Part shown: piece after piece, positions 39,376-51,617 of the stretch
Layout of the letters: every line of letters starts with the position of its first letter
Numbering within the stretch: position 1 is the first letter of the stretch
From: Allomeiothermus silvanus DSM 9946
Lineage (GTDB): Bacteria; Deinococcota; Deinococci; Deinococcales; Thermaceae
Length of the DNA: 64,000 nucleotides
Direction: 5' to 3'
Assembly (NCBI RefSeq): GCF_000092125.1
Contig: NC_014213.1
Location: forward strand, 62,001 to 126,000
Notes under the pieces: model-generated
What the model saw: only the letters and a program-made list of their open reading frames with translations
Told to the model about the DNA's origin: nothing
Databases searched by the model: none
Translations under genes and position numbers: made by a program

Positions 39376-40827
<1,452 letters not shown>

Positions 40828-47758: not shown

Positions 47759-48934
47759 CTAGATTGTCTGGTAGGCCGCCCGCAGCACCTCGGCCACCTC
47801 GGGCCGGGTGAACTCCGGCGGCAGCGGGGCCCCCGAGCGCAGCAGCTCGCGCACGCGGGTCCCCGAGAGGATCAGGTGGTGTTCCCGGTCGTGCGGGCAG
47901 GTGCGCGCGGAGACGATGGAGCCGCAGGTACGGCAGTAGAAGGTGTGCTCGAACTTGAGGATCTCGATGCCGATCTCCTCCGGGCGGAAAGCTTCGAAGA
48001 TCTCCTGCGCCTCGTAGGGGCCATAGTAGCTGCCCACCCCGGCGTGGTCGCGCCCCACGATGAAGTGGGTGCAGCCGTAGTTCTTGCGGCTGATGGCGTG
48101 CAGGATAGCCTCGCGCGGCCCGGCGTAGCGCATGGCCGCGGGGTAGACCCCCAGCACGACCCGGTCGGGGGGGTAGTAGCGCTCCAGCAATACCTCGTAA
48201 GCCCGCATCCGCACCCTCGCGGGCACGTCGTCGGCCTTGGTGGCGCCCACCAGGGGGTTCAGGAACAGGCCGTCAAGGTGCTCGAGCGCCACCTTGTGCA
48301 GGTACTCGTGGGCGCGGTGGATGGGGTTGCGGGTCTGGAAGGCCACCACCGTGCGCCAACCGCGAAAGAGGGCGCGGGTCTCGCGGGGGGTGAAGTGGTA
48401 GCGGGGGAACTCCCCCCGGTCCAGCCGGAATAGGCTCACCCGCCCGGCCAGGTTGACCTCCCCCTGGGCCAGCAGGGCGGCCACGCCGGGGTGGGCGGGG
48501 TCGGTAGTGCGGTAGACCTCGAGGGCCTCCCGGTGCCGGTCGGGTTCGTACTGCTCGGCGACCTCCAAGAGCCCCACCGTCTCGCCGCCTCGGGTCAGGC
48601 GCACCGTGCCCCGGTACCGGCGGGCTTCGGCCTTGGGTACGCTTAGGGTGATGGGAAGGCTCCAGGGCAGGCCGCTGGCCAGGCGCAGGCGCTCGACCAC
48701 CGAGCGGTAGTCGGCCTCGCCCAAGAATCCCTCCAGCGGGGAGTACACCCCGGTGGCGATGAGCTCGAGGTCGGCGTAGCCGCGCTCGGAGAGCTCGAGG
48801 GCGGGAAGGTGGGCGTATTCACGGGGATCGGCCTGCACCAGGCGGTTCACCAAGGCTCCCCCGTGCGGGGCCACGCCCCCCTCCCGCGGGCCTTCCGGCG
48901 GGTTTTTGTAGACAAGGTTTGTCAACTTTTCCAC
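47759..48934 (-). CDS. sat: ATP sulfurylase (sulfate adenylyltransferase)
   Basis: 391 residues from GTG 48934, with AAGGAG upstream; the frame continues another 20 codons into the cysH 3' region. It is the Sat/Met3 type rather than Cys[21 protein letters not shown] (Q-T-R-N-P-x-H and H-x-x-H), [10 protein letters not shown]-like [33 protein letters not shown], and a zinc-like C-x2-C...C pattern ([15 protein letters not shown]). It activates sulfate with ATP to APS. Confidence 0.93.
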
Positions 48935-48960
48935 GACAACAACTCCTTCGAATGGCCGCG

Positions 48961-49625
<665 letters not shown>

Positions 49626-49629
<4 letters not shown>

Positions 49630-50162
49630 GCCCGCACCTCCACGTCCACTCCCAGCCGCTCGAGCGCCTCCAGCAGGCGGTCCAGGCACTCCTGGAAGCT
49701 CATCTGGTCGGTGCGCAAGTGCACATCGGGGTGCAGGGGCGGCTCGTAAGGGTCGGAAACGCCGGTGAAGTGGGCGATCTCCCCCTTGAGCGCCTTGGCG
49801 TATAGCCCCTTCACGTCGCGCTGGATCAGCGCCTCCAGCGGGGCGTCCACAAAGACCTCCAGCTTCTTGGGGGCTTGCGCGAGCACCTCCTCGCGGGTAA
49901 CCCGGTAGGGGCTGATCGCGCTCACCAGCACGATCACCCCGTGCTTGGCCAGCAGGTTGGCCACGAAGCCGATACGCCTTATGTTGGTGTCGCGGTCCTC
50001 GCGGCTAAAGCCCAGCCCCTTCGACAGGTGCTCGCGCACCGCGTCGCCGTCGAGGTGTTCGACCTGGTGGCCCGCCTCGTAGAGGTGGACCTCGAGGGCT
50101 TTGGCCAGGGTGGTTTTGCCCGCGCCGGAAAGCCCGGTGAACCAAACCACTACCCCGCTCAT
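49626..50162 (-). CDS. cysC: Adenylylsulfate kinase (CysC)
   Basis: 178 residues from ATG 50162. Walker [60 protein letters not shown] and [20 protein letters not shown] are the family blocks. It phosphorylates APS to PAPS. Together with an iron-sulfur CysH this allows either APS or PAPS to be the sulfur donor. Confidence 0.93.
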
Positions 50163-50770
50163 GCTTCCGCCCACCCCGCGTAGCTGTCCAGCAGCACCCG
50201 CCAGGCGTCGCGGGCCGCCAGGTCTGCCACCAGCGCCGCCGCGGCCAGCACCCAGGCCGGGAAGCCTGGGTGGTGTAGCGTCACCTGCTGATCGGAGCCG
50301 ATGCGGGCGAGGAGCCGGGTGGGGCCAAACTCCACCTCCACCGGCTGCACCCGGTTCTCGCTGCTTTCGCGCTGCGAACCACACGTCTCGAGGTACACCC
50401 ATCCCGAGGCCGAGCCCGCTGAAAGCTCCAGCGATGCGCTCGAGCTATGCTGGGCCCCTACCCGGCGAAGCTGGAGGTGCTTTCCTTCGAGCCTGGCCTG
50501 CAGGGCAAAGGCCCGCAGGCCGCTAGAGAGCGAGCCCAGAAGCTCGCCCTGATGGAGCTCGAGGTACAGCTTTTCCCCAAAGATCACCCCACCCAGCCGC
50601 CCGGTGAGCCGCGCGCCGTCCCAGGCCAGCCGCACCCGGTACCGCAGGCCGGGGCTTTGCACCTCGCCGTGGATGCGCTGCGCCTCCCGGCGATCTCCGG
50701 GGAACCGGACCTCGGGGGGTGCAGGATAGTCCTTGAAATCAGGAAAGGGTTTGTGGTTCAACACGCTCAT
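50159..50770 (-). CDS. Hypothetical protein, first gene of the cys operon
   Basis: 203 residues, not recognised. The sequence begins [19 protein letters not shown] and is beta-rich without signal peptide or membrane segment. The C-terminal part ([19 protein letters not shown]) is alpha-helical. An AGGAG lies inside the leader ORF just upstream and the ATG follows the leader stop after one base. Its stop overlaps the cysC start by 4 bases, so it belongs to the sulfate assimilation operon and is presumably tied to it. Confidence 0.7.
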
Positions 50771-50771
50771 G

Positions 50772-50888
50772 CTACGCTCCTGTCATCGACGATTCCCAAT
50801 GCCGACGGCCAATCCTACGGCCCGGAAAACAGCATCCGGAACACCCAAGCGCAAGCATGATCCGCAACTTAGCCATAGCTTCGAACAC
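50772..50888 (-). CDS. Cysteine-containing leader ORF (38 aa) after the SAM riboswitch
   Basis: GTG 50888 follows AAGGAGG by five bases, and the frame ends at TAG 50774-50772, one base before the next ATG. The peptide contains LALGCSGCCFPGRR, with three Cys codons (TGT, TGC, TGT) within five residues, and a second cluster of basic residues. The SD is formed partly by the 3' strand of the riboswitch P1 helix. I infer a SAM-controlled, possibly cysteine-sensing leader peptide coupled to the first operon gene. It is shorter than most gene-calling limits. Confidence 0.6.
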   Translation of the reverse strand: MFEAMAKLRIMLALGCSGCCFPGRRIGRRHWESSMTGA

Positions 50889-50897
50889 ACAAACCTC

Positions 50898-51012
50898 CTT
50901 ATCTTTCCCGGATGGCCACCGGGTCGGAATTGGCACCTTAGTAGGCGCTTTAGAAGGCCTCCGCAGGTTGCCGCAGCTTCACAGGGCCGTTCCCTCCGCT
51001 GCTCTGGATAAG
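50898..51012 (-). ncRNA. SAM-I (S-box) riboswitch at the head of the cys operon
   Basis: On the minus strand P1 is CTTATC (51012-51007) with GATAAG (50903-50898). Conserved pieces in order: CAGAGCAGCGGAGGGAACGG, CCCTGTGAAG, GCGGCAACC, GGTGCCAATTCC and GGGAAAGATAAG. The GATAAG strand runs straight into GAGG, forming the Shine-Dalgarno of the leader ORF, so ligand binding would hide part of it. Confidence 0.92.
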
Positions 51013-51070
51013 ACCTCAGGGTGGGGCTGCCCCACCCCGTCCCGGCGCCCACCGGGATGAAGAGCAGGCT

Positions 51071-51117: not shown

Positions 51118-51147
51118 TTGACAGCCATAGAGATATTCACCTATAGT
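51118..51147 (+). promoter_or_regulatory. Promoter of the MarR/YhgE operon
   Basis: TTGACA (51118-51123), 18-base spacer, TATAGT (51142-51147), 15 bases before the GTG at 51162. Near-consensus. Confidence 0.7.
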
Positions 51148-51161
51148 GACTGTCCGTTGAG

Positions 51162-51617
51162 GTGATTGTTTTGGCCGAACCGGAAATCAAGGCCGAGTTG
51201 CCACTTCCCGCAGAACTCCTGCCCTATCTCGGCTTCGTGCTGTCCAAGGCCACTGCTTCCCTGCATGGGTGGGTCAACGCGGAGCTGGCCGGTTTGCGGC
51301 TGGACTTTAAGCAGGTCGGTTTCCTCGCCCTGCTCTACTTGCAAGGACCGCAATCCCAGATAGAGCTGGGGCGCAAGCTGCGCATCGACCGCACCACCGT
51401 GGTAGGGATGGTAGACGACCTCGAGGCCAAAGGCTACCTCGAGCGCCAACCCAACCCCCACGACCGCCGGGCTTACCGCCTGGTGCTCACCCCCTCCGGC
51501 AGAAGAGCCATCGAGCAGGCTGAGAAGATCGTGCTGCGCACCCAGGAGGAGTTTCTTTCCCCGCTGCAGCCCGGCGAGCGCGAAACCCTCCTGGCCTTGC
51601 TGCGCCGCCTGATCTAA
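51162..51617 (+). CDS. MarR-family transcriptional regulator
   Basis: 151 residues. Winged helix: LALLYLQGPQSQIELGRKLR, then IDRTTVVGMVDDLEAKGYLE and RQPNPHDRRAYRLVLTPSGR (the wing with the D-x-R-A/R motif). MarR proteins usually repress an adjacent efflux gene and respond to small aromatic or toxic compounds. The neighbouring membrane protein is transcribed from the same promoter. Start GTG 51162; TTG 51171 is possible. Confidence 0.9.
   Translation: MIVLAEPEIKAELPLPAELLPYLGFVLSKATASLHGWVNAELAGLRLDFKQVGFLALLYLQGPQSQIELGRKLRIDRTTVVGMVDDLEAKGYLERQPNPHDRRAYRLVLTPSGRRAIEQAEKIVLRTQEEFLSPLQPGERETLLALLRRLI

Follow-up and report, generated by a model that had tools for sequence, protein, structure and literature searches.

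The sulfate-assimilation locus described here raises the question of how a SAM-I riboswitch could act on an operon from which it is separated by a short, cysteine-containing open reading frame. The locus lies within a 64,000-nucleotide stretch (the window) of plasmid pMESIL01 of Meiothermus silvanus DSM 9946 (type strain VI-R2; PMC3035272). On the minus strand the operon runs from gene 1 through cysC and cysH to sat; beyond sat come a sulfate-type ABC transporter and a siroheme-synthase-like gene (Table 1). The true start of cysC is probably nearer 50165 than the start of the listed ORF. Gene 1 begins at ATG 50770 behind its own Shine-Dalgarno (SD) sequence, AGGAG, and both an SD and a start for this gene are present in every ortholog genome. 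It is without a match in Pfam and NCBIfam, and a search against 84,980 species recovered it only from Calidithermus chliarophilus, C. roseus and one Thermaceae MAG. It belongs to an unnamed Thermaceae family with WDG..GRLGG repeats, which has paralogues at other places in the same genomes. No match to the locus was found among plasmid records, a set from which the home record was possibly excluded.

Table 1. Features of the sulfate-assimilation locus, in window coordinates
Feature	Position	Strand	Basis or remark
SAM-I (S-box) riboswitch aptamer	50896..51014	(-)	RF00162, 84.6 bits, E 1.5e-18
Leader SD, AAGGAGG	50894..50900	(-)	AAGG inside P1 3' strand, AGG outside
38-codon leader ORF, GTG 50888, TAG 50774-50772	50772..50888	(-)	Product VFEAMAKLRIMLALGCSGCCFPGRRIGRRHWESSMTGA, 38 aa
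RBS-hiding helix, 5' arm: leader codons 10 to 16, the last of these being the first Cys codon	50843..50860	(-)	Helix 44-61/124-140 of alignment A3
Apical helices of hairpin, with Cys codons 2 and 3	50792..50842	(-)	Helices 62-74/103-115 and 84-88/97-101 of A3
RBS-hiding helix, 3' arm: gene 1 SD and start codon	50767..50783	(-)	Alignment and folds
SD of gene 1, AGGAG, inside leader	50777..50781	(-)	Sequence
Gene 1 of operon, 203 aa	50159..50770	(-)	WDG..RLGG-type repeats; conserved in six Thermaceae genomes
cysC, adenylylsulfate kinase	49626..50402 (as listed ORF)	(-)	PF01583, E 2.9e-59
cysH-type PAPS/APS reductase	48961..49689	(-)	PF01507, E 1.3e-34
sat, ATP sulfurylase	47759..48994	(-)	PF01747, E 2.9e-98

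A reading of this DNA made from the letters alone (the sequence-only reading) had called a clear minus-strand S-box, and the covariance search bears this out: the score in Table 1 compares with an RF00162 gathering score of 44.4, and the match spans model positions 1-108 of 108. The context agrees, with methionine/cysteine-type genes downstream (gene 1, cysC, cysH and sat). On these grounds of sequence the element is taken to be a SAM-I riboswitch that presumably binds SAM. Over the leader region, Rfam at a permissive threshold returned no family besides the S-box. Orthologous S-boxes stand at the same place in a genome of the same genus (G001), in C. chliarophilus (G002), in C. roseus (G003), in G012 and in a Thermaceae MAG (G011).

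The 3' strand of P1, GAUAAGG, contains the first four of the seven bases of the leader SD, so that P1 would bury this site in part, as the same reading had proposed; that only four of the seven are covered is itself a point against a SAM gate. With P1 forced to form, the mean predicted accessibility of the leader SD here was 0.12, compared with 0.33 when the 5' strand of P1 was blocked. The corresponding values in the relatives were 0.09-0.35 and 0.51-0.55, giving the expected direction in five of five genomes (all folding was computed at 37 °C, and these bacteria grow hotter). The window contains 11 instances of AAGGAGG-N4-9-RTG where 1.96 would be expected, and the motif thus tends to mark real starts. 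The overlap of P1 with the SD is kept in this genus, in Calidithermus and in Meiothermus. Within this branch of the family it is a trait of the sulfate operon, and it favors a direct action of SAM on translation. No terminator-like site was found in the interval between the S-box and gene 1, which makes translational control the natural reading.

The overlapped SD is put to more than one use within the family. Three Meiothermus genomes (G008, G017 and G021) have neither gene 1 nor a distinct leader, and their cysC starts directly from the S-box-overlapped SD (GATAAGGGGG). This direct use, together with conservation of the overlap, favors the earlier proposal that SAM gates the leader SD. Two other Meiothermus genomes, G010 and G014, use this SD for a Cys-free leader of 22 or 16 codons that overlaps the cysC start (ATGA in G014, whose S-box is weak, at 29.9 bits). 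The S-boxes of Thermus, like those of the met genes of the present genome, are followed by other hairpins and then a distant start. No S-box was found near gene-1 homologues or sat in the genomes of other families (G050, G052, G054-G056, G058 and G070). The cysC products of G008, G017 and G021 carry an N-terminal extension of ∼35 residues from the overlapped SD, as if the leader had been fused in frame.

Elsewhere in the window, a second S-box (39376-39529 (+), 61.1 bits) lies upstream of an O-acetylhomoserine sulfhydrylase-like gene. A chromosomal copy of it (C1:3203306-3203459) is identical in score and in the 3' flank (over 124 nt), which implies that riboswitch and gene were duplicated between chromosome and plasmid. 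Another chromosomal S-box (within C1:1982860-1985996) precedes an O-acetylhomoserine sulfhydrylase-like gene and has a transposase gene ∼120 nt upstream, by which the promoter of that locus may have been displaced. Just upstream of the S-box of the sulfate operon are two G+C-rich hairpins (51016-51060 (-)), with similar twin hairpins in G012; a conserved TTTACAAGTTTT..TATGCT stretch precedes the twin hairpins and is a candidate promoter. A strong promoter-like site, TTGACA-18-TATAGT at 51118-51147 (+), is placed for the divergent MarR-family gene at 51162.

The leader ORF starts in the context AAGGAGG-TTTGT-GTG, with 5 nt between SD and GTG, and its TAG is one base (C50771) from the ATG of gene 1. 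Every sequence detail that had been given for it (38 codons, the Cys codons, the one-base gap in this genome and the AGGAG within) is right. Gene 1 and the S-box occur together in G001, G002, G003 and G012, and in diverged form in G011. The first four match the present genome in SD, 5-nt spacing and GTG, except that the SD of G002 is GAGGAGG. Counting the present genome (G000), the leader frame is open and the GTG invariant in five of five, and the only indels are of 3 nt; each of the two other frames over the leader has stops in one or more genomes. The peptides of the relatives read VFEAMANWRVMRGLLCSGRCCPG..., VLEAMSKSQIM.VLSCSGRCCP... and VSKQVAMNPNPRVLSCSGRCRRS....

The leader stop is not conserved, and the ORF overruns the start of gene 1 by ∼30 nt in G001, G002, G003 and G012. 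The one-base gap, whose conservation the sequence-only reading had named as a check, is therefore private to this genome. The Cys cluster, named in the same check, is kept in part: the four further genomes share the SD, the GTG, an open frame and two Cys codons, the third Cys codon varies, and the comparison comprises five sequences, two of them near-identical. No protein-level selection on the leader was found between the distinct genomes, where non-silent and silent changes stand at 14:4 to 21:4. G012 and C. roseus have almost the same leader and gene 1, though G012 is assigned to another genus, and either a recent transfer or a misplacement of G012 would account for this.

When the RNA from the leader SD to gene 1 +30 is folded singly, a long hairpin is predicted in all five genomes, in which leader codons 10-16 form a helix with GGGAGCACACCAUG, the segment holding the gene 1 SD and start. 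This hairpin, which lends plausibility to a coupling mechanism, does not figure in the sequence-only reading. RNAalifold recovers the same hairpin from the five-genome alignment, and 89% of the alignment cells in its principal helix (44-61/124-140) are paired, compared with 37%-45% for slid versions. Three to four pairs are changed on both sides (UA/CG, CG/GC, UA/CG and GC/AU), and four double-changed pairs are reached by 31 of 500 column shuffles, against which the covariation is suggestive, not decisive. Relative to dinucleotide shuffles, the hairpin energy has a z of -3.1 in C. roseus and C. chliarophilus, -1.8 in G012, -1.1 here and +0.6 in G001. When a covariance model of the hairpin was run against 111 Deinococcota genomes, the five known loci were the only strong matches. 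The folds also contain a basal helix between the leader start and codons 5-8 of gene 1, the register of which differs among genomes.

In the free RNA, the predicted accessibility of the gene 1 ribosome-binding site (RBS; -13..+3) is 0.17 here and 0.00-0.18 in the relatives. In a synonymous-codon control (300 versions; three genomes), accessibility as low was reached by 1 version in G012, 11 in G001 and 39 in G000; in the same three genomes, total energy was not below that of the synonymous versions. Removal of the RNA that a leader ribosome would cover or have passed raises RBS accessibility from 0.00-0.17 to ∼0.4-0.5 once the A site is at about codon 10 or later in G000, G002, G003 and G012, and the site is then predicted to stay open to the end of the leader (the ORF modelled for G003 begins too far upstream, its leader being the stretch from codon 206). 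In G001, the same procedure leaves the RBS open from the first leader codon. On this model, leader translation should open the operon; a stall is unnecessary, and a stall at the Cys codons would prolong the opening.

Considered together, these observations make it probable, in our judgment, though with appreciable reserve, that the SAM-I switch acts at the level of translation on the leader ORF, and that ribosomes translating this ORF in turn open the sulfate-assimilation operon. With SAM bound, P1 would form and cover part of the leader SD, the leader would go untranslated, and the SD and start of gene 1 would stay in the hairpin. At low SAM, ribosomes would translate the leader, move beyond about codon 10 and unwind the 5' arm, freeing the SD and start of gene 1, such that gene 1 and the operon would be translated. 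Reinitiation at TAG-C-ATG could contribute in this genome. The Cys codons fall within the zone where a ribosome would keep the hairpin open, and, more speculatively, slow decoding at low Cys-tRNA could prolong the open state.

The direct start of cysC at the S-box SD in G008, G017 and G021 also fits a history in which this SD once drove the operon and gene 1 was inserted later, leaving a leader that is translated but of little importance while gene 1 uses its own SD. Such a by-product would show no amino-acid constraint, as is the case for this leader, and the hairpin is weak both here and in G001. The Calidithermus hairpin, in contrast, is strong and has compensatory changes, and SD and GTG are kept in all five genomes; we therefore consider this history unlikely, while according it real weight. 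A reading without any leader, in which translation of gene 1 starts from the S-box SD in the other frame and adds an extension of ∼39 residues, draws on G001, G003 and G012, where no stop interrupts that frame between the vicinity of the S-box and gene 1. It is highly improbable given that every genome provides gene 1 with an SD and a start of its own, and in G000 and G002 an extension in the gene-1 frame to the S-box SD is ruled out by in-frame stops.

The S-box could instead act on transcription, through Rho or a hidden terminator, with the leader ORF merely exposing or shielding RNA. Untranslated leaders often invite Rho. Rho has also been suggested for the Cys leaders of mycobacteria (PMC1262725). 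At the present locus, P1 meets an SD rather than an antiterminator, and this, with the lack of an intrinsic terminator noted above, makes a transcriptional switch improbable.

The relay from riboswitch through leader to operon would be refined, rather than displaced, if the leader were in addition a true cysteine sensor. In this two-input form, low Cys-tRNA would stall ribosomes at the CSG-C-C codons and hold the gene 1 RBS open; at high cysteine, the ribosome would proceed and, in the relatives, pass over and cover the start of gene 1. The operon genes supply the sulfur of cysteine, which suits such a sensor, as do several features of the codons themselves (50843-50841, 50834-50832 and 50831-50829 here). 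Two Cys columns are invariant in the five genomes, amid flanking DNA that is equally conserved, and the third shifts or is lost (G002). The first, invariant codon sits at the top of the RBS-hiding helix, and a ribosome with this codon in its A site would thus cover nearly the whole 5' arm (columns 44-61). The second invariant TGT, at columns 73-75, has its third base unpaired. Cysteine is encoded by TGT in 13 of 14 leader codons, against the TGC habit of the operon genes (2 TGT, 11 TGC).

Other properties of the leader weigh against cysteine sensing. The composition readily accounts for three Cys in 35 codons (P 0.32 here, 0.30-0.64 over the genomes), and the gene-1 frame over the same DNA is about as Cys-rich, with two to four Cys codons; three Cys within six residues is mildly unusual, with a P of 0.04 here and 0.04-0.32 in relatives, and is seen in 1.4% of window ORFs of 28-60 codons. 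The Cys bases lie mostly within paired, conserved RNA, and conservation of the leader can be explained largely by base pairing. Amino-acid changes far exceed silent ones, the lack of cysteine in the leaders of G010 and G014 suggests that it is dispensable, and the predicted opening of the RBS is not Cys-specific, as a ribosome at nearly any codon after about 10 would suffice. We regard a true cysteine sensor as possible but, on balance, doubtful.

Leaders with some of these properties are known. In translational attenuators of the ermC/cat type, leader sequence holds a downstream RBS in a hairpin until a ribosome occupying the leader releases it. Their signal is an antibiotic acting with a specific stalling peptide, whereas here a riboswitch would control the leader start, and in most relatives the leader overruns the RBS. 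The mgtA leader of Salmonella joins metabolite or ion sensing to amino-acid-dependent translation of a short ORF; unlike the present locus, with which it is not homologous, it is transcriptional and responds to Mg and proline. At ppe2 of M. tuberculosis, a B12 riboswitch has been shown by experiment to be a translational OFF switch that masks the SD of the uORF uPPE2, on whose translation ppe2 depends through overlapping stop and start (PMC11260477). Both systems place a riboswitch over the SD of a short ORF ahead of a gene that depends on it, or here would do so. The ligand there is B12 rather than SAM, and the available portion of that report describes no RBS-hiding hairpin with a uORF arm and proposes no amino-acid codon cluster. 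In place of the ppe2 stop/start overlap there is a 1-nt gap here, ATGA in G014, and the ∼30-nt overrun in G001, G002, G003 and G012.

Among Actinobacteria, where Cys-codon leaders of cys genes are established or predicted, polycysteine leader ORFs precede mycobacterial cys operons (Canestrari et al. 2020, cited in PMC9094748; first predicted in PMC1262725) and, like the present leader, are short ORFs with clustered Cys codons ahead of sulfur-assimilation genes. They differ, so far as the available parts of these sources extend, in having Cys runs near the stop, a leaderless start (by title) and no mention of a riboswitch; the 2005 comparison found no conserved hairpin (PMC1262725). The uORFC-8-2 motif upstream of cysS in Rhodobacterales likewise has conserved Cys codons (uORF positions 14-15) in a uORF within a structured leader, but it precedes another gene, lacks a riboswitch and ends in an intrinsic terminator, indicative of transcription attenuation (PMC8632094). 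Riboswitch-gated coupled uORFs and Cys-codon leaders are thus each known, and their combination is one for which we found no description. As the sequence-only reading had supposed, we found no paper in which one leader carries both a SAM riboswitch and Cys codons, nor any on sulfate-operon riboswitches in Meiothermus, in a search that took in a minority of subscription papers.

The proposed relay, from riboswitch to small ORF to operon, departs from the usual picture of a riboswitch acting on its own gene. Within the Thermaceae, the series from a direct cysC start, through a short Cys-free leader, to a Cys leader with a hairpin would show a stepwise rise of such a relay. Rather unlikely, in our estimate, is the full AND gate, in which the SAM-I riboswitch decides whether the leader is translated and cysteine supply sets how long the hairpin over the operon start stays open. 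Were it true, one RNA would read both end products of the pathway, cysteine only when SAM is low, and the system offers a simple test of whether one leader can read SAM and cysteine.
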